From NCBI RefSeq assembly GCF_016811105.1, contig NZ_JAFBGM010000001.1, forward strand, positions 2,670,126 through 2,734,125: a stretch of DNA of 64,000 nt. The letters are read 5' to 3'. The translations under genes and the position numbers were made by a program. The notes under the pieces were generated by a model, which did not search any database, was not told where the DNA came from, and was given only the letters and a program-made list of their open reading frames with translations. Shown here one piece after another: positions 31,734 to 48,700 of this stretch. The stretch comes from Aurantibacter crassamenti. Lineage in GTDB: Bacteria > Bacteroidota > Bacteroidia > Flavobacteriales > Flavobacteriaceae. How positions within the stretch are numbered: the stretch's first letter is position 1; each line of letters starts with the position of its first letter.

Positions 31734-31775
31734 CTATGCATTATCCACTTTTTACTATGCGTTATCGACTTTACG
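31734..31775. repeat. Two tandem 21-base units upstream of the DUF4212-symporter pair
   Basis: Units at 31734-31754 and 31755-31775 both begin CTATGC and agree at 16 of the first 18 bases, ending differently. The 21-base period equals two DNA turns, so both units would face one side of the helix. The second unit runs over the anmK stop codon. It could be an operator; nothing else is known. Confidence 0.5.
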
Positions 31776-32847
31776 CAGGTAAATAAATTACACCGCTAGA
31801 AGAGTTTGTTGCAGCTCCTGTCACTGAATTAAGCACATTGATTTCATTTTCAATGCGTAAAACCCCCATTAAGGCAAAAACAAGGGCCTCTTTAAATTCA
31901 ATTAGTTCGCTGCTGGTTTTAATTATCTTAACTGAATCACCCAGTTTTTTCTGTAAAGTGTCAATAAGAAAGGTGTTGAGAGCGCCCCCACCGGTAATAA
32001 GTAACGTATTGTTTTGAGAACTACAGTGTTTTTTTATTTGAATTGCCACTTGATCACAAATATGATGTATACTGGTGTGCAGCAAGTTTGACATAGAATC
32101 TTCGGTTCTATCAACTATTGGTACTACTTTTTCAACAAACCATTCATAACCAATTGATTTTGGTATGGGTAGTTTGTAGTATTCAAGTGCATTTAAACTG
32201 TCAAGCATTTTGTTATTTAGTACGCCGCTTTTAGCAAGCAACCCGCCATCATCATAAGCTAAATCGTGCTTACGTGTAATATAATTTAGAATCATATTTG
32301 CCAAACCAATGTCATATGCAATTCGCTTTTCATTCTTTTCAAAAGATACATTACTTATGCCACCTAGGTTTAAGCAAAAATCATATTGTCCAAAAAAGAG
32401 TTTGTCGCCAATGGGCACCAATGGCGCACCTTGGCCACCTAAGGCAACATCATTTGTACGAAAATCACAAATTACAGTTTGACCACTTGCATTTGCTAGA
32501 TGTTGGCCTGAACCAATTTGAAAAGTGAGTCCGTTTTCGGGTTGGTGATGTGTAGTATGACCATGACTAGCAATAGCATCAATTGTTAAATTGTTTTCTT
32601 CAATAAATTTTTTCGCTTGCTCACCTAGCCATGTGCCATAATGATTATGAAATATTAGAAGGTCAGCAGCCGACAAATAGATGGAGTTCTTTAATGCATC
32701 TTCCATTTCTTGCGTGTACGATACGCTTTTGGTTTTTTTAATATCGAATTTCCAAGATGACTGTGTTTGCCAAATAGTGCAATATGCTAGGTCTAATCCG
32801 TCTAAAGATGTACCTGACATAAGGCCTAAAATATTGTATGTTTTCAT
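31771..32847 (-). CDS. anmK: Anhydro-N-acetylmuramic acid kinase
   Basis: AnmK opens the 1,6-anhydro ring of anhydro-MurNAc from wall turnover and phosphorylates it to MurNAc-6-phosphate. The 358-residue product starts with the diagnostic GLMSGTSLDGLD ATP-binding motif (about 8-19) and has ASHGHTTHHQPE, CDFRTNDVALGGQGAPLVP and the late ITGGGALNTFL. Its ATG overlaps the GH3 stop as ATGA. The GH3 enzyme, the AmpG-like carrier and MurQ nearby make up the same recycling route. Confidence 0.96.
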   Translation of the reverse strand: MKTYNILGLMSGTSLDGLDLAYCTIWQTQSSWKFDIKKTKSVSYTQEMEDALKNSIYLSAADLLIFHNHYGTWLGEQAKKFIEENNLTIDAIASHGHTTHHQPENGLTFQIGSGQHLANASGQTVICDFRTNDVALGGQGAPLVPIGDKLFFGQYDFCLNLGGISNVSFEKNEKRIAYDIGLANMILNYITRKHDLAYDDGGLLAKSGVLNNKMLDSLNALEYYKLPIPKSIGYEWFVEKVVPIVDRTEDSMSNLLHTSIHHICDQVAIQIKKHCSSQNNTLLITGGGALNTFLIDTLQKKLGDSVKIIKTSSELIEFKEALVFALMGVLRIENEINVLNSVTGAATNSSSGVIYLPA

Positions 32848-34430
32848 TTGCTTGGTGCTATATTAAAAGGAATTCTACCTTTTGCTTCAAAGTTTCCTAA
32901 AAAGTGTTCGGCCGCAACCTCTTGAAATACATGAAAATTTTGATAAGCCAGCACAACTGATTGTGCCTTTTTAAAGTTCAAAATATTCAATACATACGGA
33001 TTGCCAAATAGATATAGAATAACATTTTTTGATTCTAATAATGTATTTATTGATTCTAACTCTTCATTTGAGAAGCCGAAATTATCAGTTGGTTTTACTT
33101 GTGGCGGAAAGAGTGCTAATAGTATATTTTTAACGTCAAAAGTCTCACTGTCAGATAGTTGTAATGATCTAAACTGTTTATTTGTATTAATTTGTTTAAA
33201 AAATTGACAGTCAGGGAGTTGCATGTTGCTTATCCCTGTAAATATTTCAGCTGAAAAATCTTTGATGATAGCTGAACTTCCATTTAAAATTGATAGACTT
33301 TTTTCAGCAATTTTTTTATTTAGAGCATCACTATTTATAATAGTTTGCTCTGTGTTGATTGATTCAATTTGAAATGCTTTTTCTTTAAGATGCCATATAC
33401 GCTTGAAGCTATCTTCAATTTGATTTTGAGTTGCTTTTTCTTCAATAAGTTTTATTCCTTCTAACGTATTTTCAGCAAAACAGAGTACGTCATTACCAGC
33501 ATCAAATGCAAGCCATTCTAATTCACCTTTCAAGGGATATTTATTTGAAACAGCGTGCATATTTAGCGCATCTGAAATTACAACACCATCAAACCCCATT
33601 TCATTTCGAAGAAGGCCCTTAATAATGTCTTTTGAAATACTCGATGAAATTGTATTGTCATTAGCTAATGTTGGAACTGATAAATGGCCTACCATTACTG
33701 AATCAACACCTTCATTAATTAATTTTTGAAAAGAATAAAGTTCATTTTCGATTAATTCTTGTTTCGATTTGTTTATTATGGGAAGCCCTAAATGCGAATC
33801 GGTAGCCGTATCACCATGGCCGGGAAAATGTTTAATACTAGTTAAAACACCTTCACTTTCAGTTCCCTTAACATATGCGGTAGCTTTTGCTGTAACATTT
33901 TGTTTATCCTCACCAAAAGAACGATATCCAATTACTGGGTTTTTAGGATTATTATTAATATCTACGCATGGTGCTAAATTCCAATGAATACCCGCAGCTA
34001 TACAATCAAGAGCAATATTTCTTCCGACCTCAAAAATCAAATCATCATTATTTACCATGGCACCTAATGTAATGGCATAGGGGTATTGTGTGGTGTTTTC
34101 AATACGCATTGCCAAACCCCATTCAGCATCAATTGCTATTAGTAATGGATGTTTTGAAACAGATTGATATCTATTAATTAATTTTTTAAGTGTACTAAGA
34201 CTATTCTCATTATAAAGCACTTTCTTTTTGCCTTCAAAATTTGTCGCTGCACTAGCACGTGAATGAAAAAAACATAGTCCGCCAACACCATATTTTTTTA
34301 TAAGCTCCTCAAGTTGTTGAATTTCTTCTTCTGAGTCATTAATAAAAGCAGCGGGCATAAATAATTGTCCAATTTTTTCTACGACAGAAAGCGAGACAGT
34401 AGCTTTAGAATATGTGTTTATTTTACGCAT
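32844..34430 (-). CDS. Glycoside hydrolase family 3 beta-N-acetylhexosaminidase (NagZ-like)
   Basis: A 528-residue GH3 protein with KHFPGHGDTATDSHLGLP, which holds the His-Asp dyad typical of NagZ-type hexosaminidases, and the nucleophile Asp in DGVVISDALNM. After the barrel (about residues 1-345) there is an additional C-terminal domain of about 180 residues, as in two-domain members and unlike the short E. coli NagZ. The ATG at 34430 is chosen over an upstream TTG at 34454. It overlaps the end of the carrier gene by 8 bases. It lacks an evident signal peptide, so it probably cuts GlcNAc from anhydro-muropeptides in the cytoplasm. Confidence 0.9.
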   Translation of the reverse strand: MRKINTYSKATVSLSVVEKIGQLFMPAAFINDSEEEIQQLEELIKKYGVGGLCFFHSRASAATNFEGKKKVLYNENSLSTLKKLINRYQSVSKHPLLIAIDAEWGLAMRIENTTQYPYAITLGAMVNNDDLIFEVGRNIALDCIAAGIHWNLAPCVDINNNPKNPVIGYRSFGEDKQNVTAKATAYVKGTESEGVLTSIKHFPGHGDTATDSHLGLPIINKSKQELIENELYSFQKLINEGVDSVMVGHLSVPTLANDNTISSSISKDIIKGLLRNEMGFDGVVISDALNMHAVSNKYPLKGELEWLAFDAGNDVLCFAENTLEGIKLIEEKATQNQIEDSFKRIWHLKEKAFQIESINTEQTIINSDALNKKIAEKSLSILNGSSAIIKDFSAEIFTGISNMQLPDCQFFKQINTNKQFRSLQLSDSETFDVKNILLALFPPQVKPTDNFGFSNEELESINTLLESKNVILYLFGNPYVLNILNFKKAQSVVLAYQNFHVFQEVAAEHFLGNFEAKGRIPFNIAPSK

Positions 34431-35697
34431 TCGATTGATTTGATTTCTTTCCAAAATCAGAAGGGTACTTAATAAATTTCAATAGAAAAACAGCAGGTAA
34501 AGCAGCAATTACTACCCAAACAAAAAAGCCATCATACCCTAACCATTGTTGCATGTAACCACTTATCATACCAGGTAGCATCATACCTAACGCCATAAAA
34601 CCTGTAGCAATCGCGTAATGTGAAGTTTTTGATTTTCCATCGGCAATATAGATGAGATACATTAAAAAAGCTGCAAACCCAAAACCATATCCAAACTTTT
34701 CAAAAACGATAGTCGCCGTAACAGCATAAATATTAGTGGTTTTTGTTATTGCAAGTAAAGCATATAAAATGTTAGGTACGTTCAAAGATAAAATCATTGG
34801 AAGCATCCATCGTTTTAAACCATCTCTTGAAATTAATATTCCTCCAAGAATTCCACCTATAGACAACATAATAACACCTACGGTTCCAAAAAGAATACCC
34901 AATTGTTGAGTGGAGTACCCTAGACCTCCTTTTTCACTAGAATCTAACAGAAAAGGAGATGCCATTTTAACAAGCTGTGATTCACCTAAACGATAGGTAA
35001 GTATAAATGCAAGTGCAATACCAATGCCTGGTTTATTAAAAAATGAGGAAAAGACTTCAAGGAAACCTTTTGGTTTTTCAGTGCGAATAGCTGCGGAGGA
35101 TTCATACTTTGGTGCAACAAAAAAGTTTGAAATAGTAAGTGCTAACATTAAAAAGGCCGAGGCGGTCATTGTAATACTCCATGCTTTTGAGTTGTCTCCA
35201 TATTTTTGTTCTAGAAATCCTGCTAAGAACACAATTAAGCCTTCACCAGTAACCATTGCCAATCGATAGAAGGTACTGCGCATGCCCACAAAAAATGATT
35301 GTTTCTTTTCGGTTAATCCAATCATATAATAACCATCGGAAGCAATGTCATTTGTGGCTGACGTAAAAGCAGCCATCCAGAAGCAGGCTAGGGTAGTGGT
35401 GAAAAACATGTTGGTTGGTATAGTAAGACCGACACCTAATAGAGCTATTGCAATTAAAAGTTGCATACTTAAAAACCAGTTCCGTTTGGTACTCTTCAAA
35501 TCAACAAAAGGGCTCCATAGTGGTTTAAGCACCCAGGGTAAGTATAATAAGCTGGTATAAAGACCAATATCTTCATTGCTGACTCCGAGTTGTTTGTACA
35601 TAATGACCGAAACGGTGACAACCATTACATACGGTAAACCTTGTGTAAAATATAAAATAGGCACCCATGCCCAAGCCTTTTTGTCTTTTTGAATCAT
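34423..35697 (-). CDS. AmpG-like MFS permease, likely for muropeptides
   Basis: A 424-residue transporter with about twelve membrane helices. The opening WVPILYFTQGLPYVMV and the following LGLYTSLLYLPWVLKPLWSP-like stretch (here DIGLYTSLLYLPWVLKPLWS) match the AmpG/PAT branch of the major facilitator superfamily. AmpG brings GlcNAc-anhydroMurNAc peptides into the cytoplasm. Position directly before the GH3 enzyme and AnmK supports that substrate here. It is 56 bases downstream of the DigH-like gene on the same strand. Confidence 0.87.
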   Translation of the reverse strand: MIQKDKKAWAWVPILYFTQGLPYVMVVTVSVIMYKQLGVSNEDIGLYTSLLYLPWVLKPLWSPFVDLKSTKRNWFLSMQLLIAIALLGVGLTIPTNMFFTTTLACFWMAAFTSATNDIASDGYYMIGLTEKKQSFFVGMRSTFYRLAMVTGEGLIVFLAGFLEQKYGDNSKAWSITMTASAFLMLALTISNFFVAPKYESSAAIRTEKPKGFLEVFSSFFNKPGIGIALAFILTYRLGESQLVKMASPFLLDSSEKGGLGYSTQQLGILFGTVGVIMLSIGGILGGILISRDGLKRWMLPMILSLNVPNILYALLAITKTTNIYAVTATIVFEKFGYGFGFAAFLMYLIYIADGKSKTSHYAIATGFMALGMMLPGMISGYMQQWLGYDGFFVWVVIAALPAVFLLKFIKYPSDFGKKSNQSNA

Positions 35698-35753: not shown

Positions 35754-37262
35754 CTATTTATGTTTTAAATGTACAATTACTGGCTCAGATTTTCTACCGA
35801 AGTAATCAATAAAAGTCAGTGCTACATATTTTTTGTGATGCGATATTTCTGAAGGAATAGAAATAGAACTGTTCTCGTTTACAATTACTTTTGTTAATAG
35901 TTTTTTAATGGAATATTCAGTTCTCTTTTTCTTACCAGAAGGATAAACCAGCGCGTAACGATACCCCTCCAAGTTTTTAAAGATCAGATCAGTAAACACA
36001 TTGTTTTCTTCAATACCTTTAAGTTCAATGTTTTTCAAAGAATTGGTGCCAGAGTTAATGACTACGGGTGTTAAAGCTTTTCTTTTGTAATATTTTTTTT
36101 GAAGATTAGTGACTATATCATCATTGTTTTTCATTAGGCTTTTAGCGCTAAAAAAGACATTACCTTTTACATTTTCTGTATTTCTAGCAAGATTTAATTG
36201 TTTGGGTAGTTCTTTTGGGTCGTCCCAAGCTTTATCACTATTATTTCTGATTTTATAAGGACCATTGCCAATATATAGATTGGTATTTTGACTATTTAAT
36301 GACCACCAATCAACAATTTTTCGATGTGATGCAACAGACAAATCCATACTCCAATATACTTGTGGAATTAAATAATCAAGCCACCCTTCTTTCATCCATA
36401 ACAAAGGATCAGCATAAAGATTTTCATAAGTAGTTTGGCCTGCTTTAGTATCTGATCCATTTGGATCGGTTGCTTTGTTTTTCCAAACACCAAAAGGGCT
36501 AACACCAAATTGCACCCATGGTTTTCTGTTTTTTATGGTTGTATAGCTGGTTTTAATTAGAGAGTCCATATTTGAACGTCTCCAATCATCAATTGACTGA
36601 TTTGGTAGTTTGTGAAAGTTATAAGTCAATGAATCATTAAAGACTTCATCTTTTATTGTATAAGGGTAAAAATAGTCATCAAAGTGAATTGCATCAATAT
36701 CAAAATTGGTAACAATTTCATCAATTACAGATGCCATTCGATCACGAACTTCAGGTATACCAGGATTGTAATAGTATTTTTTACCATACTTCAACATCCA
36801 TTCAGGGTGGAGGTTATAATCATGAATAGGACTTAATATTTCTGTTTTTAGGTCAAATGTCGCACGGTAAGGATTAAGCCAAGCATGAAATTCCATTCCT
36901 CTAACATGCGCCTCATCAATCATCCATTTTAAAATACTTTCATCAGAATTGGGTGATTGACCCTCTTTTCCAGTCAAAAATCGAGACCAAGGTGCATAAT
37001 CAGAATCATAAAAAGCATCACCAGCAGTTCTAATTTGAACTATTGCAGCATTGAAATTTAAATCATCATAAAAATCTAGAATTTTAAGATAATCAAGTTT
37101 TTGCTTTTCAATAGCATCATTTCCGTTTTTAGGCCAGTCGATATTTACAACTGTTGCCACCCAAAAACCTCTAAACTCTCTTTCTGGTTGCGGAATTGGT
37201 TTAAAAACCGAACAAGAATGTATAGTAACTACAAGAAGAATAAAAAGTAACTTTCTAATCAT
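35754..37262 (-). CDS. GHL10 (DigH-like) glycoside hydrolase lipoprotein
   Basis: A 502-residue lipoprotein (signal peptide with TIHSC, Cys17) with the glycosyl-hydrolase-like 10 domain: FRGFWVATVVNIDWP, NFNAAIVQIRTAGDAFYDS, EFHAWLNPYRATFD, IDAIHFDDYFYPY and DYLIPQVYWSMDL. E. coli DigH of this family cuts peptidoglycan glycan strands stripped of peptides. Gene context here (muropeptide uptake and sugar recycling) fits that. A C-terminal beta-rich domain follows (about 410-500). The start is the ATG at 37262; an upstream TTG adds three residues only. Confidence 0.88.
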   Translation of the reverse strand: MIRKLLFILLVVTIHSCSVFKPIPQPEREFRGFWVATVVNIDWPKNGNDAIEKQKLDYLKILDFYDDLNFNAAIVQIRTAGDAFYDSDYAPWSRFLTGKEGQSPNSDESILKWMIDEAHVRGMEFHAWLNPYRATFDLKTEILSPIHDYNLHPEWMLKYGKKYYYNPGIPEVRDRMASVIDEIVTNFDIDAIHFDDYFYPYTIKDEVFNDSLTYNFHKLPNQSIDDWRRSNMDSLIKTSYTTIKNRKPWVQFGVSPFGVWKNKATDPNGSDTKAGQTTYENLYADPLLWMKEGWLDYLIPQVYWSMDLSVASHRKIVDWWSLNSQNTNLYIGNGPYKIRNNSDKAWDDPKELPKQLNLARNTENVKGNVFFSAKSLMKNNDDIVTNLQKKYYKRKALTPVVINSGTNSLKNIELKGIEENNVFTDLIFKNLEGYRYALVYPSGKKKRTEYSIKKLLTKVIVNENSSISIPSEISHHKKYVALTFIDYFGRKSEPVIVHLKHK

Positions 37263-37269
37263 AAATAAC

Positions 37270-37304
37270 AAAAAAGGCCTATTTGCATTTAAAAATAGGC
37301 CTTT
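37270..37304 (-). terminator. Rho-independent terminator after nagB
   Basis: AAAGGCCTATTT (37273-37284) pairs perfectly with AAATAGGCCTTT (37293-37304) around an 8-base A/T-rich loop; a U-run follows on the reverse strand. It separates nagB from the four genes downstream and leaves 8 bases before the DigH-like ATG. Confidence 0.8.
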
Positions 37305-37323: not shown

Positions 37324-39249
37324 TTAATCGAATTTATGTCTAACAAAAGCTTCCATTGCAGCATAATCAGAAAGACCAAGTGCTTTATATCTTGCAGCGG
37401 TATCCTTATTTCGCTCTTCAGCTCTCATCCAGAATTCTCTTGCATCATCACCTTGAAACATAACACCATCTTTTTGAGATTGATGGCAAAATATTGCATA
37501 ACGCTTTTTAAGCACTTGCCCTGGACTCATAGGTACAGCCATCTCAATTTCATTGATGTCCCACTCATGCCAAGCACCTCTATATAACCACAACCAGCAA
37601 TCTTTCATAAATTCGTCTGATTGTAAACGCTTCATTGCTTCAAAAACAGCATCAAGACATACTTTATGTGTACCATGTGGATCAGCTAAATCACCAGCAG
37701 CAAAAATTTGATGTGGTTTAACTTCTCTAATGTAATCCATCATTATTTTAACATCTGCCTCAGATAAGTTGTCCTTTTTAATAGTACCAGTTTCGTAAAA
37801 AGGAAGGTCAAGAAAGCGAACGTTTGCATCATCAAGACCAACATATCTAGTTGCAGCATATGATTCGCCACGCCTAATATTTCCTTTTAATTTTCTAACA
37901 TCTAAGGTATCAAAGCTACTTTCGTTTTTAGCCTTTATAGAATCAATTATGTGTTGTGCCTCATCTGAAGGACTAATGCGTTTGGCGATTTCGGCATAAC
38001 GAATGGCATCAGTATCTGAAACGGCTATATTACCTGAAGTTTGATAAGCAACATGTACATCATGACCCTGCTCAACTAAACGATCAAAAGTACCGCCCAT
38101 TGAAATTACATCATCGTCAGGGTGCGGGCTAAAAATAATAACTCTCTTTTTAACTGGTAGGGCTCTTTCGGGTCTGCTAGTGTCATCAGCATTAGGTTTT
38201 CCACCTGGCCAACCTGTAATTGTATGTTGTAATCTATTGAACATTTTTATATTCAAATCATAAGAGTCTTGAACAGATAATAAGCCCGACATTCCATTGT
38301 CATTGTAATCTTTATCTGTTAAGCTTAAAATTGATTTTTCGGTTTGATTACAAAGCCAAACAATTGCTTTTGCAGTTAAACTTTCTGTCCACTCTAATGA
38401 TTCATCTACTAACCATGGTGTTTTATTTCTTGTCAATTGACCACCAGCACCGGCATCAAGAACAAAAGTGCAATTTTTATGCTCCTGTAAATAGGTAGCG
38501 GGTACGTATGATGAAATTTCACCTTCAACAGTTTTTTTAATAATGTTCGCCTTGTTTTCACCCCAACCAAGCAAAACAATTCGTTTAGCACTCATCACCG
38601 TTGAAATACCCATGGTAATTGCTTTTCTAGGCACATTGTCTATTCCTAAAAAGGCAGGCGCAGCATCAACTTTTGTAATATGGTCAAGTGTGATAACTCG
38701 GGTACCAGAATTGTGGTGAGACCCAGGTTCGTTGAAACCTACGTGTCCCGTTCTACCAATACCGAGCAGTTGAAAGTCAAGTCCGCCGAATTTTTTTATA
38801 GCTTCTTCATAAGCCAGACAATAGTCGATAACAAATTCTTTAGCTACTGTTCCGTCAGGGATATGAATGTTTTCACTAGGTATGTCAATATGATTGAATA
38901 GGTGTTCATGCATGAAGTACCAATAACTCTGGCGGTTATCTTTCTCCATTGGTAAATATTCATCAAGATTAAAGGTAATCACATTAGAAAAGCTCAAGCC
39001 TTCCTCTTTATGCATTCTCACAAGTTCTTCATAAACTCGAATGGGAGAGGAGCCAGTAGCTAAACCTAGTACACAATTCTTTTTAGATTTTTGTTTTTTA
39101 CGAATAAGCGCCGCAATTTCGTGGGCTACTTTAATTGAAGCTTTGTTAGAATCTTCAAAAATTACATTGTGTATTTTTTCAAAGCGAGTTTCTTCAAAGT
39201 GGCCTACCGGTTTATGGCTAATGTCTATTCCAGTTTTTTTTTGTTTCAT
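37324..39249 (-). CDS. nagB: Glucosamine-6-phosphate deaminase fused to a PIG-L deacetylase-like domain
   Basis: A 641-residue two-domain protein. The N-terminal domain (about residues 15-275) is NagB, which turns glucosamine-6-phosphate into fructose-6-phosphate and ammonia: LGLATGSSPIRVYEEL, FNLDEYLPM, GIGRTGHVGFNEPGSH. After a linker of about 95 residues comes a PIG-L/LmbE domain with IIFSPHPDDDVISMGG (near 377) and ADPHGTHKV (near 525). These supply the zinc ligands of that superfamily, which deacetylates GlcNAc-containing substrates. Fusions of this size are known in Bacteroidota. Two ATGs are possible (39267, 39249); I use the second. It diverges from the DeoR-type regulator. Confidence 0.93.
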   Translation of the reverse strand: MKQKKTGIDISHKPVGHFEETRFEKIHNVIFEDSNKASIKVAHEIAALIRKKQKSKKNCVLGLATGSSPIRVYEELVRMHKEEGLSFSNVITFNLDEYLPMEKDNRQSYWYFMHEHLFNHIDIPSENIHIPDGTVAKEFVIDYCLAYEEAIKKFGGLDFQLLGIGRTGHVGFNEPGSHHNSGTRVITLDHITKVDAAPAFLGIDNVPRKAITMGISTVMSAKRIVLLGWGENKANIIKKTVEGEISSYVPATYLQEHKNCTFVLDAGAGGQLTRNKTPWLVDESLEWTESLTAKAIVWLCNQTEKSILSLTDKDYNDNGMSGLLSVQDSYDLNIKMFNRLQHTITGWPGGKPNADDTSRPERALPVKKRVIIFSPHPDDDVISMGGTFDRLVEQGHDVHVAYQTSGNIAVSDTDAIRYAEIAKRISPSDEAQHIIDSIKAKNESSFDTLDVRKLKGNIRRGESYAATRYVGLDDANVRFLDLPFYETGTIKKDNLSEADVKIMMDYIREVKPHQIFAAGDLADPHGTHKVCLDAVFEAMKRLQSDEFMKDCWLWLYRGAWHEWDINEIEMAVPMSPGQVLKKRYAIFCHQSQKDGVMFQGDDAREFWMRAEERNKDTAARYKALGLSDYAAMEAFVRHKFD

Positions 39250-39296
39250 TATCAAAGTTGCTAGCATGTGTTGTGGACTTAATTTTTTGAATCATG

Positions 39297-39304: not shown

Positions 39305-39344
39305 GGCAATAAATTGAATTTTTGCAGCTTTATGCTTTTTATTT

Positions 39345-39400
39345 TGCTGTTTTATGCTCTTTTTAAAGAAAATGCAATTATAAAACAGAATAAAACAGCA
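39345..39400. promoter_or_regulatory. Inverted-repeat operator, likely for the DeoR-type regulator
   Basis: TGCTGTTTTAT at 39345-39355 recurs exactly, inverted, as ATAAAACAGCA at 39390-39400. Partial copies lie beside both arms: TTTATGCT on the left arm, and TAAAACAG twice (39381-39388 and 39391-39398) on the right. The right arm covers the -33 region of the regulator promoter, consistent with autorepression. The left arm lies upstream of the nagB promoter. Confidence 0.6.
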
Positions 39401-39416
39401 TAATAGTATAATTCAT

Positions 39417-39456: not shown

Positions 39457-40206
39457 ATGTTAAAAGAAGAAAGACAACAAACTATTTTAAGTGTAGTAGA
39501 ACTGCATAATCGCATATTATTGACTGATATTGCAGAATCATTAGATGTATCTATTGATACTATTCGGCGCGATGTAAAAGAATTGGATGCTGAGAATAAA
39601 CTTAAGAAAGTTCATGGTGGAGCCATATCCTTGGGTTTTACCACAAATAGTGTTAAAAATCAAAATATTTATCGATTAGAACAGAAGACTAGGATTGCCG
39701 AAAAAGCAATAACCTTACTTAAAGATGGTTCGGTAATATTTGTTGATGGAGGCACTACATGTAACGAATTAGCAAGGTTAATACCTTCAAATTTAGATTT
39801 AACATGTTTTACCCATAGTATACCTGTTGCTATGGAGTTGTTAGCAAAACCAAACGTAACTGTCATATTAATAGGAGGGCAAGTTTCAAAAGAGTCACAA
39901 ATATCTATTGGTGCAAATGCAATTCATAATCTTTCAGAAATAAAAGTAGATTATAGTTTTATCGGCACGGGTTATGTTGATTCTTTTTATGGACTCACAG
40001 AATTCGACTGGGATATTGTGCAAGTGAAAAAAGCAATTATAAAATGTTCTAAAAAAACAGTGTTGCTATCCATTTCTGAAAAATTGAATTCTCAGCATCG
40101 CTATAAGTCCTGTGATATTAACGCGATAAATACAATGATTACTGAATTAGAGCCTGAAAATGAACTTCTCAATTCTTTTAGAAACCACGATATTCGAATA
40201 TTATAA
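39457..40206 (+). CDS. DeoR/GlpR family transcriptional regulator of amino-sugar genes
   Basis: A 249-residue regulator. The N-terminal DeoR helix-turn-helix (about 5-58) reads LLTDIAESLDVSIDTIRRDVKELD followed by KVHGGA, the family hinge. The C-terminal sugar-phosphate sensing domain has FVDGGTTCNELARLIP and the later IGTGYVD. Such regulators sense phosphosugars. With nagB divergent and murQ 7 bases downstream, a GlcNAc-6-phosphate or glucosamine-6-phosphate signal is a reasonable inference. The inverted repeat at 39345-39400 is its probable binding site. Confidence 0.92.
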   Translation: MLKEERQQTILSVVELHNRILLTDIAESLDVSIDTIRRDVKELDAENKLKKVHGGAISLGFTTNSVKNQNIYRLEQKTRIAEKAITLLKDGSVIFVDGGTTCNELARLIPSNLDLTCFTHSIPVAMELLAKPNVTVILIGGQVSKESQISIGANAIHNLSEIKVDYSFIGTGYVDSFYGLTEFDWDIVQVKKAIIKCSKKTVLLSISEKLNSQHRYKSCDINAINTMITELEPENELLNSFRNHDIRIL

Positions 40207-40212
40207 ATAACT

Positions 40213-41022
40213 ATGAATTATATTAAAATCACAGAAACCCCTTCAAATCATGATAATTTAGAACAGTTAGACACTGTTTCAATTCTAAATAAGATGAATG
40301 AAGAAGACAAAAAAGTTGCTGATGCAGTTGCTGAGGTAATTCCGCAAATTACCATTTTAGTAGATGCATTGGCAGAACGCTTTGAAAAAGGCGGTCGATT
40401 GTTTTATATAGGTGCTGGTACTAGTGGGCGATTAGGTGTTTTAGATGCTTCTGAAATACCACCAACATATGGTATGCCGCATGAAAGGGTAGTGGGCATT
40501 ATTGCGGGTGGTGATATTGCAATTCGTAAATCAGTTGAAAATGCTGAGGATGATATAAATCAGGCATGGAAAGATTTAATGGTGCATAATATTACAGATT
40601 TAGATGTGGTAGTTGGTATAGCTGCTTCTGGCACAACACCCTATGTTTTAGGAGGATTAGCTGAAGCTAAGAAAAATGGAATACTTACTGCTGGTGTAAC
40701 TAATAATCCGGGTTCACCTTTAGCTGAAGCTGCTGATATTGCTATTGCTATGAATGTTGGACCTGAATTTGTAACCGGAAGTACGCGTATGAAAAGTGGT
40801 ACTTCTCAAAAATTAGCACTGAATATGATTTCAACTGCCCTGATGATAAAAATCGGTCGGGTAAAAGGGAACAAAATGGTTAACATGCAATTAAGTAATG
40901 TTAAACTAGTGGATAGAGGCGTACGCTATGTGTCTGAAGGGTTGGGTATTGAATATGCCGCAGCAGAAAAACTTCTTAAAGAGCATGGGTCTGTAAAAGC
41001 AGCTTTAGATGCCGGTGCTTAG
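40213..41022 (+). CDS. murQ: N-acetylmuramic acid 6-phosphate etherase
   Basis: MurQ removes the lactyl ether from MurNAc-6-phosphate, giving GlcNAc-6-phosphate and D-lactate. The 269-residue SIS-domain product has GRLFYIGAGTSGRLGVLDAS, the catalytic-region PPTYGMPHERV, AGGDIAIRKSVENAEDD, GIAASGTTPYVLGGL and TGSTRMKSGTSQK. It is slightly shorter than the roughly 300-residue E. coli enzyme but has all these motifs. It takes the product of AnmK and feeds the NagB step. Confidence 0.96.
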   Translation: MNYIKITETPSNHDNLEQLDTVSILNKMNEEDKKVADAVAEVIPQITILVDALAERFEKGGRLFYIGAGTSGRLGVLDASEIPPTYGMPHERVVGIIAGGDIAIRKSVENAEDDINQAWKDLMVHNITDLDVVVGIAASGTTPYVLGGLAEAKKNGILTAGVTNNPGSPLAEAADIAIAMNVGPEFVTGSTRMKSGTSQKLALNMISTALMIKIGRVKGNKMVNMQLSNVKLVDRGVRYVSEGLGIEYAAAEKLLKEHGSVKAALDAGA

Positions 41023-42727: not shown

Positions 42728-45700
42728 ATGCTCCCTAAAAAAACAAAGCATCTTTTGTATGCGCTACTGTTGATTTTCTCTTCAATAGTAGGTACATCGG
42801 CAATAGCTAACACTAGTGTTTTAGAATTACTTTCTGAGGTTTCTATCGCTTTTAAAAGCAAAACTACTGAAGCTAACAAAACAGTAGCAGCCGAGACTAA
42901 AACTACATTCAAGAAAAATACGTTAAAAAACGCGAGTGCAATTGTAGCCAATGCCCCAATGTTTATTACTGTTTTTGCAGCACCTGATGATACCAATGTT
43001 TGTGGTACTGATGGTTTAGAAGTAGCGCTTTTTAATCTATGTGGTGATTCTGACAACCGAATTATCACCTTAACAGGAAGCCCCAACCCTAGTGCGCAAT
43101 GGCAAATTTTGGGTGGATCTTGTTCGCCAGACTTAACGGATGCTTGCCCTAATCAATCAGCGAGTTGTTACACAACGGTTCACACCGGAAGTGATTATAC
43201 ACTAAATGCAGCGTCTATACCAGCAGGTACTGGTGCTGAATTTCGTGTTTTAATAGGAGGGGTAGCACATTACTTTGAGGTAAAGAAGAGTACAATAACC
43301 CAATCATTCGTTAAAAAAGATTTTATCTGTGGGGTAGATGGTGAGATTCAAATTACGGGACTTTCAAGTGCTTATGAATTTAGTATGAATAGTGGTAGTG
43401 GGTTTGGCCCATGGCAAGGACCTATTTTCGGTAATCTTAGTCCTGGCACCTACAACGTTAAAGCTAGATTAAGAAATACAGCAGGAGCATGTGAATATCC
43501 TTATGCACCAATAACCATTAATCAATTAGATATGGGTATTGATGTTACTTTTGTAGATGCCCAATGTTCTGGTGATACAGGTTCTGTTACCGTTACCGTT
43601 ACCGGTGGAGTACCAGGTCCTTTTAAATACACATTATTAGATGAAAATTTAGTTGCACAAGAATTTACATCATTTATAGCAGATAACCCATACACATTTT
43701 CAGCAGTAAGTTTTGGTTCATATACGGTACAAGTAGAAACACAACAATGTACTGGTGATCCAGGAAACGGTATTGATCCTCCTAGAGAGAATCGAGATAC
43801 TTCTAATAATCCAATTGTTATCGGAAATGGTTTAGATGCATTAGATGCATCCACCGAAGTAAACAGCAGTTTTGGCTGCTCAACAATTTCAGATGTTGAC
43901 ATCACTGTAAATACAACAGGAGGCTCTGCCCCGTATACGTTCACCGTAAATGGAGGGCCATCTCAGCCATCATATACAGGTTCAACAACTTATACCGTAT
44001 CATCAGCTGGTACTTATGATTTTATTATAACAGATAGTAATGGGTGTACAATTCCGGCATCTGCAAGTGTTGAAAGTTTAGATCCACCAGATGTAACTGC
44101 AAATGGTATTGATGGCACTTGTTCAAATGGAGGAGCAAAAATTAATTTTAATATTATTGACCCAAAAGGTTACAACCTGACATATCGTGTTAATTCTGGT
44201 GACCCATGGGACACCAACCCTCAAATTTCTGTTCCTGCTGGAACTTATAATGATATTGAAGTTCGTTACCAACAAGGTGGTTTTGAATGTACAATACCAT
44301 TGCCATCTGTAACGGTTACGAATGTTGGTGTAATTTCTGGTTCATCTTCTAAAGTTTCAGATCGTACGTGTGATGGTAGTGGAGGTGTGAATGGTGGTCA
44401 AATTGATTTTGTTGGTCCATTTACAGGTGGATCGGGTAGTGGTTACGTTTTTAGTATTGATGGAACCAATTTTACAGGAACAACATCATATACGAATCTT
44501 GGGCCAGGAACCTATACACCAATGATTGAAGACGGTGGTGGATGCCGTTTAGAATTGACACCTATTACAATACTTGATGTTGATCCTCCAACGGATATTG
44601 ATTTTGTATCCTCAGATAGTAATTGTACTAGCAATACAGTAGATGTGCAAATTGTACCAACTAGTAGTGCATTAATTACTAATTACAGTATAATTAGTCC
44701 CGCTTCTGAAGCACATGATAATTTTGGAAACGACACTTTCGATGACCTAGATGCTTCGCAATCGTATATTTTTCAAATTACCGATGCCAATAATTGTACG
44801 TATACAGAAGGATATTCTCCTAATATAATAAGTAGTATACGTGCTAGAGTTAAATCAGGCGGAGATTTAAAGGTTTGTACAGGAGCTACTGATGGTACAG
44901 GCACCTTTTTAATAGATGGTTTTGCTAATAATTATACCTATAATATAAATGGAGGTGCAGAAAGTGGACCTCAAAATGACTCTGAAGTTGTATTACCCCC
45001 TTCAGGAGCGGGCATCTATACAATAACAATTACAGATGATGATACAGGTTGTACTGATACAGCATCATTTGAAATAGAAGAACCAACAAATGCAATTGCA
45101 TTAACGGGTAATGTAACTGCTATGACATGTGCTAATGGTAATTTAGGGCGTGTAGTAGCTCAAGCAACAGGAGGTTGGGGTAGTAATAGATATGAGTTAG
45201 CATACCCAGATGGTACTACCACAGCTGGCCCTAAAGCTGGTACAGTTTTCAGTAATTTGGGGCAAACAGGTACATATACCTTAACTGTAGAAGATGTTGA
45301 GGGCTGCTCAGCTACGTTTGATTTTGATTTAACTTCATTAGACGCACCAACTTTAGCTTTTGATGCTGCTGGTTCAGATTTATGTTTTGTTGCAGGCACC
45401 GGTGCAACCATTGTTGTAAACTCTACTGCTGGCACAGCTGCCCTTGGTACGCATCAATACAGAATTAATGGAGGAGCATTACAAGGTTCTGCAACCTTTA
45501 CAAATCTTAGCCCTGGAAACCATACGATTGAAGTAGTTGATGGTAATAACTGTAGTGATAATATTAATATTACAGTAAATCCTCAATTAAGAGTGAATAC
45601 TAGTATTACAGGGGAGATACCCTGTGGTGGAGCAGACGGACAAATAACCGTTGAGGTTACTGGAGGATATTTGACTAACGCCACGCCTAAATCTTATGAG

Positions 45701-48700
45701 GTAAGTAGCGATAATGGTACAACATTTGGAGCGCCAATACCATTAACATCAAATACATTTGCCTATGATACAAACACACCTGGTGACTATATTTTCCGGG
45801 TTTCAGATAATGAAAATTGTGTAGCGGAGTCAAATCCAATTACATTAAATCCACCTGTAAATATTGATCCCGCAGCTGTTGATATTATACCAGTGAGTTG
45901 TGGTAGTGCGAATAATGGTGTTGTAACTATAACGCCAGATGCAACTAGTGGAATTCCACCTTATGAAATTAGTTTTAATGGTGGTACTTTTGGAACACAG
46001 TCTGTTTTCTCAAATCTAGCGGCTGGTACATATCCTTATTTAGTAAGAGATTCAAGAGGTTGTACAACTGTTCCGGCAGATGCTATTGTAGGAACAGATA
46101 CAACTAGTGCGCCAAATGCAACAGTTACCGAAGAACCAGCAACATGTAGTGCAGGCCCAGTTAGTGGTGGGGTGAATATCATTGCTATGTCACCCGGTAG
46201 TCCAAACTATACCTTTATTGTAGAAGATGTTTTAGGGGTAGAACAGGCACGATTAGAAAATGTATCAACTTTTCCAACACAAATTTTAAGCCCTAATTTG
46301 ATTCCAGGAACTTATACGGTTGTTACCATTGATGCAAATGGTTGCCGTGATGAAGATACTGTTACAATTACAGAACCTAACCTTTCGGTTGTACCTGATG
46401 GGGTAATACCTGTTTGTTCAGATACAGGCTTTACTGATACTGTAGAAATATTTGGTGGTACCGGATCTTTTCTTATTCGTTTAGAAAATGACCCATCAGC
46501 ACCAGTTCCTCCTAACGCAGGACTTAGAAGACATACTTTTAGTGGATTACAGTATGGAGTTACTTACACTGTAGAAGTAACAGATACCCGTGGAGATCCG
46601 GATCCCGCAAATTGGTGTATTTATTTTGAAGAAATTCCACCGACTAGTGGTCCAACGCTATTAGAAGTCACAGCTACATCAACACCCGATTTTTGTGATG
46701 TAAATAGGAATGGAGAAATAACCTATACCATTGACAATTTCACCCTTGGAGATAATTTACAAGTTGAAATCTTAGATAATACTAATGGTACACAATCAAT
46801 TATTGAAACAGTAACTCCTTTGACTGTACCTTATTCTAATACCCATTTGGCAATTGCTGGTGATTATCAAATTATTGTTACAAATCTAGCAGATGATTGT
46901 AGTACAGCTACAAGTATCATTGTTGAACAAAATTTACCAGGAATTGATATAATTGCTGAAGAGCCAGCAACATGTAATTCTCCAGGTCAGATTGTGGTTC
47001 AAGGTAATAATGGTGATGGCGGTCCTTATGAATTTGCATTTATGGATTCTGGTAGTACCCCGTCAGCTGGAGATTGGACCACCAATACTTCGTTTATTGC
47101 AGTTGCAAATACGTATGATGTTTATGTGCGTGATAGCAGTGGTTGTACCTCTTTTGCTATTGCTACGGTTGTACAATCTGATCCTGTTTTACCTGCACCA
47201 ATTTCATTTGTAGATAACCAGTGTGTAGTTACAGCAACTGCTTTTGATATTCGAGTTACAATTCCAAATACAGTTGACACCCCAAGATTTACTTTAGGCG
47301 GTGATGAGCGTTTGGCACCTGACGTTGTTGATAATGGAACACATTGGGAATACACGTATACAGTTGCAAGTCCAGGCACTTATTTTATAGATGTAGTTGA
47401 TGCCAATGGTTGTACAAGTCAAGGAACAGCAGTTGTTTATGATTTCTTGTCAATTTCTGCTTCATTTAGTACTGAACCATCGTGTAATGCTGCTGATGGT
47501 ATTATTGAGATACTTCCTATTGGTGGTAGTAATCAGTTCAGTTATCAATTACAAGATAGTGGAGGCGTTGATATTGGAGCACCAATTTTAGGTGATCGCA
47601 ATCAAGGTGAAATTACAAATGTAGCACCAGGTTCATATATAGTTGAGGTTACGGATACTGAGACAAATTGTGTAGTAACAGCTACTATCAATTTAGACGC
47701 TGCAACACCACCAATTATAGATACGATACATGAAAATGATATTTCTTGTGAAGGGGAAAATGATGGTAGTATAGATATTATTTTACAAACAGGTACTGAT
47801 GTTGATGGCCCAATTGTTTATTCAATTTTTGAGGCTGGTACAACAACACTTGCCAAGCCTTCTAATGCTTCAGGGTCTTTTATAGATTTGGTTCCTGGTT
47901 TTTATGATATTGAAGTGCGAACCGATAGAAATTGTATTGCTGTAAGACAAGATATTGAAATTGAAGAACCAGCATTATTTTCAATTTCAGCTAGTGCCCC
48001 AGATTTTGCTTGTGAACCAGGTGCAAACCGATACAGTTCTACAATAATAACCGTAGCTATAGATAACCCTGGAACGTCAGGTCTTGGTCCAGATTACCAA
48101 TATAGCATTACGGGCTTTTCGAATTACCAATCTGCGAATACTTTTGAGATTGTAGATAATGGAGATCCTGCTGGACAAACAATAACGGTTTATGCAATAG
48201 ATGCAAACGGTTGTCAATCATCTACAAATGTTTCAATTGCGGCACCAAGCGACGTAACTCCAACCCTTACAGTTGTCAGTGCATTAAATTGTAGAGACGA
48301 TGAAAGAGTGCGTATAACTGTTCCAGCTTCACAAACTACAAGTTTTACAGTATCCACAATTTCAGCGGTTGCAATTGCACCAGTAACTAATGCACCCGGT
48401 AATGATTTTGTAGAGATTGACTTGCCAGTATCTGGTGATTATTTATTTGAGGTTGAAGATTTAGTTGGTGGTTGTACATATCCATTACCTATACATACGG
48501 TAAGTGAACCTATTTTGCCAACAGTTGTTATTACTGAAACCAAACCAATTTCATGTTTTGGAACCAGTGATGGTGAAATTTCAATTGAAGTAACTGATTA
48601 TACAGGTGTTTATACGTATAATGTTTATAGTGGAAGTGACCCAGGCAAGACTACCGTTTTAGCAACAGGTTCTTTTGATACAGCTAACAATCCAGAAACC

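Follow-up and report, generated by a model that had tools for sequence, protein, structure and literature searches.

A NagB-PIG-L fusion protein of Aurantibacter crassamenti as a candidate replacement for the GlcNAc-6-phosphate deacetylase NagA in Bacteroidota

Introduction

Which enzyme removes the acetyl group from GlcNAc-6-phosphate in Aurantibacter crassamenti? The question is raised by a locus in the stretch of its genome analysed here (64,000 nucleotides, hereafter the window), where a gene for MurQ, the predicted source of GlcNAc-6-phosphate, lies close to a gene for a NagB protein, the substrate of which is glucosamine-6-phosphate. Both in the use of amino sugars and in cell-wall recycling, deacetylation of GlcNAc-6-phosphate is a key step, and its loss may be harmful. 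Construction of a Caulobacter mutant devoid of both nagA genes was not possible, and the authors, in the part of the article consulted, link this to build-up of GlcNAc-6-phosphate (PMC13046382). According to the sections consulted of another article, four of five bacteria that use glucosamine through NagX also need NagA (PMC9007349); the fifth NagX panel there appears to be that of Echinicola vietnamensis, a Bacteroidota. A sequence-only reading of the window had proposed that the C-terminal half of the NagB protein may supply the deacetylase step. Here we examine this proposal with profile searches, genome comparisons and structure models.

Results

The open reading frame of the fusion was confirmed (Table 1); its second in-frame Met, at 39249, is as plausible a start as the one at 39267. 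The protein had been read as a NagB with a C-terminal PIG-L/LmbE domain and intact catalytic motifs, and Pfam and motif reading agree with this. It passes the NagB profile TIGR00502 (252.6 bits, cut-off 236.9), and the catalytic D102, H175 and E180 are all present. The roles of these residues, and of R190 and K239, we take to be those of their counterparts in E. coli NagB. In the HPDDD motif, H382 and D385 are presumed metal ligands and D384 the presumed general base, by analogy with MshB. The fusion is a full-length match to the NCBIfam family NF002557 (PRK02122, 'glucosamine-6-phosphate deaminase-like protein'), aligning from residue 8 to 646 with positions 5-652 of the 653 in the profile, far above the cut-off of 384 bits; the fusion architecture is thus already known. 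The name of this family covers the deaminase only, and the entry gives the C-terminal half no deacetylase role. The NagA profile TIGR00221 is absent from the 10 NCBIfam families matched by the protein. The cut-offs for bacillithiol deacetylases are not reached either (BshB1, 36 versus 182.5 bits; BshB2, 29 versus 195.25 bits).

Table 1. Features of the fusion gene and its surroundings (window coordinates)
Feature	Position	Strand	Evidence or remark
AnmK, anhydro-MurNAc kinase	31771..32847	-	PF03702, 212.5 bits
GH3 beta-N-acetylhexosaminidase, NagZ-like	32844..34454	-	PF00933, 254.1 bits; NagZ-like name inferred
AmpG-like MFS transporter	34423..35697	-	PF07690, 66.5 bits; AmpG name inferred
GHL10 family protein	35754..37271	-	PF02638, 216.5 bits
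Terminator-like hairpin	37273..37304	-	12 pairs, T-rich tail, just 3' of the fusion; weak (1 found, 1.5 expected in shuffles)
NagB-PIG-L fusion	37324..39267	-	647 aa, alternative start 39249; NF002557, 1055.7 bits
HQSQ motif	37474..37485	-	aa 595-598; conserved
PIG-L/LmbE de-N-acetylase domain	37636..38136	-	aa 378-544; PF02585, 67.1 bits, cut-off 28.2
DPHGTH motif	37666..37683	-	aa 529-534 (H531, H534)
HPDDD motif	38110..38124	-	aa 382-386; proposed metal ligands H382, D385; proposed general base D384
NagB (glucosamine-6-phosphate deaminase) domain	38473..39153	-	aa 39-265; PF01182, 80.5 bits, cut-off 27
NagB active-site stretch GHVGFNEP	38725..38748	-	aa 174-181 (H175, E180)
DeoR-type regulator	39457..40206	+	PF00455/PF08220; divergent from the fusion
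MurQ, MurNAc-6-phosphate etherase	40213..41022	+	SIS domains; genome's best TIGR00274 match, E = 3.8e-93; GlcNAc-6-phosphate source

The fusion gene is divergent from a DeoR-murQ pair and is followed by the hairpin and then by the GHL10, AmpG-like, GH3/NagZ-like and AnmK genes. No nagA is found among the Pfam-annotated neighbours, as had been noted from the letters alone. The locus is conserved in near relatives, the nearest named ones being Kriegella, Maribacter and Zobellia. Complete flanks of 6 kb were available for 69 near-relative loci; MurQ is found in 44 of them, DeoR in 43, NagZ in 43, AmpG in 41, GHL10 in 35 and AnmK in 33; 24 loci, including those of Aquimarina, Capnocytophaga and Flavobacterium, have none of the six. 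Where present, AmpG is always downstream on the same strand (41/41), and MurQ is upstream on the opposite strand in 43 of the 44 loci that bear it. Within flanks of up to 5 kb on each side of the 150 fusion loci sampled across the phylum, the counts are 27 for GH20, 14 for AmpG-like, 13 for NagP-like, 11 for AnmK, 9 for GH18 and 7 for MurQ. At least one gene of the GH20, GH18, NagP-like, AnmK, MurQ, AmpG-like, ROK, NagK-like or GHL10 kinds is present in 66 of these loci: 45 of the 112 in genomes without nagA over the cut-off and 21 of the 38 in genomes with it. For most neighbour clusters, one representative was named by Pfam; the NagP-like and AmpG-like proteins matched the general MFS model only, the NagK-like ones matched nothing at 1e-8, and these names are inferred. 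Between the divergent fusion and DeoR genes, the promoter region (window 39320-39405) holds a 21-nt direct repeat and inverted repeats, possibly an operator. Its TAAAACA/TGTTTTA pairs are not conserved, being found in 6 of 69 relatives versus a background of 1.8%.

The whole A. crassamenti genome (4.52 Mb, 2 contigs, completeness 99.69) was searched for NagA. The expectation of a missing nagA held for an ordinary one, subject to the caveat that one divergent, apparently exported NagA-like protein passes the cut-off. This single TIGR00221 match (233.4 versus 225.65 bits; G000:C1:1193973-1194962) raises the possibility that the divergent protein is the working deacetylase in Aurantibacter and that the PIG-L half is dispensable. 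The protein keeps the metal-site motifs HLEGPY, GH, THL, DGFH and SDA and the Arg of REPG, a NagB-like gene lies nearby (137.7 bits, under the cut-off of 236.9), and the genus-mate has the protein too. Nevertheless, an N-terminal signal peptide is apparent by eye in both genus members, the start in A. crassamenti lying just after the upstream gene; the protein is thus a poor candidate for a cytoplasmic step. Both members also share two motif changes: FNAM, which reads N-[AS]-M in all 30 phylum NagA proteins compared, is replaced by GNGC, and the REPG of many phylum NagA proteins by RHHN. The neighbours, judged by eye, look like TRAP, Nramp-type, Gfo/Idh and sulfatase genes, not genes of wall recycling, and among 40 fusion-bearing relatives, 30 give no match to such a protein that exceeds 36 bits. 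An ordinary NagA was rejected for A. crassamenti on the basis of the signal peptide seen by eye, the GNGC and RHHN changes and the unlike neighbours, and we regard the divergent protein as a very unlikely source of the activity. Homologues of this class in L229 (G107) and L230 (G182) show similar motif changes and no obvious signal peptide. Bacillithiol deacetylase was likewise rejected as a filler of the gap, as A. crassamenti has a separate BshB1 (298.5 bits); the two other PIG-L matches of the genome carry apparent signal sequences, as judged by eye. The PIG-L half of the fusion is supported, from sequence comparison, as the best cytoplasmic candidate for the missing step. As a separate observation, the locus of the divergent protein (L109:2936-8535, at about 1.19 Mb of C1) looks like one for amino-sugar use, with NagA-like, NagB-like and Nramp-type genes, two Gfo/Idh-like genes with apparent signal sequences, and a TRAP-like transporter and a sulfatase-like gene beside them. 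In the genus-mate, too, the NagA-like gene is accompanied by the NagB-like one.

The distribution of the genes was analysed in 296 Bacteroidota genomes, each at least 90% complete. The fusion (NF002557) is over its cut-off in 121 of them, nagA (TIGR00221) in 43 and murQ in 204 (211 at the looser line of E < 1e-40). At that looser line, MurQ accompanies the fusion in 120 of 121 genomes. Of the fusion genomes, 97 are without nagA over the cut-off and 24, including A. crassamenti with its divergent match, have one; 91 have no NagA-like match above 100 bits, among them 90 of the 120 with MurQ. In 20 of the 26 fusion-holding families no sampled fusion genome has nagA over the cut-off; in the others it is found in 6/23 (f1), 7/7 (f3), 7/9 (f4), 1/5 (f5), 2/2 (f10) and 1/28 (f23) fusion genomes. 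A strict anti-correlation between fusion and nagA was not found in this sample: in f1, nagA is present in 6/23 fusion genomes and in 0/7 others. The comparison was therefore made among genomes with a NagB. Those with a stand-alone NagB only (26, all passing TIGR00502) have nagA in 16 cases, so that nagA is absent from 97/121 fusion genomes versus 10/26 stand-alone-NagB genomes (Fisher p = 4.9e-5, ignoring phylogeny). The remaining 149 genomes, which have no fusion and no strong stand-alone NagB, include 65 with MurQ and 3 with nagA. In 62 of these 65 MurQ genomes nagA is not over the cut-off, and 54 are also without the type II protein described below. Genomes without a typical NagB can thus hold MurQ and lack nagA as well, which weakens the argument from a metabolic dead end; MurQ without nagA by itself demands no replacement enzyme.

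Among named relatives with the fusion (40 genomes, corresponding to 40 of the 80 relative loci and overlapping the phylum sample at L236/G182, L294/G107 and L304/G021), 7 have a TIGR00221 match over the cut-off, 3 one of 168-218 bits and 30 nothing above 36 bits. Alignments A1 and A4 cover 38 and 62 of the 80 relative loci, respectively. NagA is reported by annotation in two Flavobacteriaceae, as far as the consulted parts of the articles go (PMC4324048, PMC10942906), which argues against a general absence of NagA. One of them is Maribacter halichondriae, the genome paper of which lists NagA in its consulted part (PMC10942906); our search found in this genome only a NagA-like stretch of 168 bits in a 351-aa frame and a 34-bit piece in a second frame of 134 aa. 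True NagA genes near the fusion were seen only in L096 (G068), 83 bp away from an intact copy, and in L088 (G245), 5.2 kb away, the distances being between matched stretches. Further rows that seemed to place NagA near the fusion (L201, L080, L135, L075, L174, L188, L108 and L150) were excluded since they came from one of the five NagA queries, which was a wrong open reading frame (L060).

The conservation of both active sites was counted in 150 fusion copies; these come from 114 fusion-bearing genomes, all but seven of the 121. H382, D384, D385, H531, H534 and H595 are all present in 142 copies; H382 and D385 are changed in none, and D384 is kept in 146. On the NagB side, D102, H175, E180, R190 and K239 are complete in 147 copies. 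We took the counts from this set and not from alignment A2 (28 chosen copies minus the altered L103, L142 and L203, plus the split G219 gene), as membership of A2 was selected for intact sites. A different explanation makes the PIG-L half a non-catalytic regulatory or stability domain; in its favour, four copies of genus g85 (L103, L123, L161 and L170) persist with D384A, without the general base. They form one clade (support 0.988), so that a single event is probable, and each is a duplicate in a genome that holds another, intact copy. The intact site in 142 of 150 copies also speaks against this explanation, as do G230 and G238 (genus g37; L129 and L172), where the NagB half is the degraded one (D102Y, H175N) and the PIG-L site is intact. 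We find a purely non-catalytic role highly improbable. In G215, too, a changed NagB site (D102N) goes with an intact PIG-L site. The other altered PIG-L copies carry H531N (G146 and one G214 copy) or a change at the H595 position (the second copy of G103, and G268). Loss of the PIG-L site wherever nagA is present was considered as a rule and is not general: in f3, f4 and f10, the families in which most fusion genomes hold nagA, the site is intact in 22 of the 23 copies examined. The only altered copies in nagA genomes are one in G214 (H531N) and one in G171 (D384A, H534Y); the remaining six are in genomes without nagA over the cut-off. The D384A clade of g85 is possibly a NagB-only version of the fusion.

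The PIG-L half (aa 365-647) was modelled with a mean pLDDT of 76.1, the catalytic-motif blocks averaging only 54-81. The model matches MshB (Z 16.7, rmsd 3.8, 217 residues aligned), diacetylchitobiose deacetylase (Z 16.1, rmsd 3.5, 213 aligned) and BshB (Z 15.7, rmsd 3.3, 197 aligned). Among the 22 structure matches with Z of at least 14 are 20 named or putative deacetylases, TT1542 and GalB, a hydratase (Z 15.2), an example of other chemistry on this fold. At the sequence level, the nearest solved relatives are GlcNAc-type deacetylases, chiefly diacetylchitobiose deacetylase from Pyrococcus; in the profile comparison, diacetylchitobiose deacetylase is the top solved match (E 4.1e-10). No argument rests on the full-length model, which came from a shallow alignment (mean pLDDT 63.6); in a Foldseek search with it, NagB structures took the top ranks, and diacetylchitobiose deacetylase appeared from rank 47 on. 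The archaeal diacetylchitobiose deacetylase (Dac; 3we7, 8bgn) is of the same superfamily, the closest solved sequence and likewise an enzyme of amino-sugar breakdown. It differs from the fusion in being stand-alone and in its substrate, diacetylchitobiose according to the entry titles, and shares 21-23% identity over the model alignment. MshB and BshB, deacetylases of thiol pathways, share the fold of the PIG-L half; the fusion fails the BshB1 cut-off. NagA (TIGR00221) would share with the PIG-L half the proposed reaction and the place in the pathway, and is unrelated in sequence; it has an amidohydrolase fold, unrelated to the PIG-L fold.

These relatives bear on a further explanation, that the PIG-L half deacetylates a different sugar, be it free GlcNAc, chitobiose or a side product, and that an unrecognised enzyme deacetylates GlcNAc-6-phosphate. 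Judging partly from entry titles, the solved proteins nearest to the PIG-L half have GlcNAc compounds without a phosphate group as substrates. Moreover, nagA stands alongside an intact PIG-L site in three families and adjoins the fusion in G068. Against this, MurQ yields a 6-phosphate and 90 of 120 MurQ-bearing fusion genomes are without a NagA-like match above 100 bits; 43 of 69 near-relative loci have MurQ upstream, on the strand opposite to the fusion; and fusion or adjacency to NagB favours a phosphosugar, as the substrate of NagB is a 6-phosphate. Action on another sugar is, on balance, rather unlikely, and deacetylation of GlcNAc-6-phosphate is the reading that we retain.

Two other arrangements of the same domains were found. 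In G219 (L366:611-2286), a nagB gene (263 aa) is followed 23 bp on, on the same strand and measured between listed open reading frame ends, by a 286-aa PIG-L gene. The latter has HPDDD and DPHGTH and, among NCBIfam families, matches NF002557 best, in the C-terminal half of the profile (263.4 bits); MurQ is present in this genome and nagA over the cut-off is absent. A longer NagB-PIG-L protein of about 785 aa, named type II here (L367:919-3276, L375-L394), occurs in 27 of the 296 genomes with matches of at least 739 bits, and never together with the NF002557 fusion (0 of 121 fusion genomes). By hhalign (probability 99.0, E 6.7e-18), the C-terminal half of type II is a relative of the PIG-L half. 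HHDD and PDTH are found in 20/20 aligned type II proteins, the H531 position not being His; in the NagB half, FNEPGS is replaced by FNVxGS or FNIxGS in 20/20, with loss of the catalytic Glu. Alignment A3 covers 16 of these 20 proteins. The type II gene lies 196-4553 bp from murQ in at least 8 genomes (about 200 bp in G132 and G236). Among stand-alone-NagB genomes, 8 of the 10 without nagA carry it, versus 6 of the 16 with nagA (Fisher p = 0.051). The two exceptions among the 10 are G219, with its split pair, and G148, the one genome that has neither a split pair nor type II. The type II protein as a handler of GlcNAc-6-phosphate is a lead, not a result.

Discussion

In the proposed pathway, AnmK would convert anhydro-MurNAc to MurNAc-6-phosphate, which MurQ would convert to GlcNAc-6-phosphate. 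The PIG-L domain, with a putative metal site formed by H382, D385 and H534 and with D384 as the base, would then deacetylate GlcNAc-6-phosphate to glucosamine-6-phosphate, from which the NagB domain would make fructose-6-phosphate and ammonia. Judging from its motifs, the PIG-L half has a competent metal site; binding of a phosphosugar is putative, and comparison of sequences and motifs did not identify a phosphate-binding residue in this half. That the substrate is GlcNAc-6-phosphate we infer from the place in the pathway, the gene content of the genomes, and the fusion or adjacency to NagB; the order of the two reactions and a possible channelling from one domain to the other are likewise proposals.

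The idea that the fusion fills the NagA step stands as far as the 97 of 121 fusion genomes without nagA, the intact site in 142 of 150 copies, the split pair and the conserved locus go; as a rule for all bearers of the fusion it does not, as nagA coexists with it in some families. The PIG-L half is hence not always the sole deacetylase, and where nagA coexists (f3, f4 and f10; adjacent in G068) it may be redundant or specialised. In many Bacteroidota, we propose, the PIG-L half is probably a widespread non-orthologous replacement of NagA. The broader statement that much of the phylum is without NagA and that a PIG-L protein, whether fused to NagB, adjacent to it or of the 785-aa type II, handles GlcNAc-6-phosphate is one that we hold with no lean for or against.

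Pathway reconstructions should show a gap in the 97 fusion genomes in which nagA is not over the cut-off. If the PIG-L half does the step, hundreds of genomes would gain a complete pathway (341 stretches encoding a relative were found in the relatives search), a PIG-L enzyme would gain a phosphosugar substrate, and the way in which many Bacteroidota cope without the textbook deacetylase NagA would be explained. In the fused form, glucosamine-6-phosphate would go directly to the deaminase, and recycled wall sugar would thereby be committed to glycolysis.

A deacetylase role for the NagB-PIG-L fusion was not found in the literature searched, mostly titles and abstracts, nor in the consulted parts of PMC5127042, PMC10942906, PMC4324048, PMC9007349, PMC11378808 and PMC13046382 or by a term search of PMC3878776. 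The domains and the fusion architecture are known; the pathway role in place of NagA appears, from these comparisons, to be unrecognised. The ChiUL NagB of Flavobacterium johnsoniae (Fjoh_4557) is likewise a NagB of a Bacteroidota, in a chitin locus, and is compared here at the level of its NagB identity. According to the consulted part of the article, it was not expressible and its deletion had no effect on chitin use; F. johnsoniae has three more nagB-like genes and a separate predicted NagA, Fjoh_3974 (PMC5127042).

Two further observations concern the surroundings of the locus. Just past the end of the window, G000:C1:2736908-2737273 (L425) gives a weak BadF/NagK-type kinase match (21.5 bits, cut-off 31.5) within a 286-aa frame, a possible GlcNAc kinase. 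Within the window, 42728-51250 (plus strand) encodes a 2840-aa protein with many segments that look similar by eye; its C-terminus resembles what we take to be a type IX secretion (type B) sorting signal.
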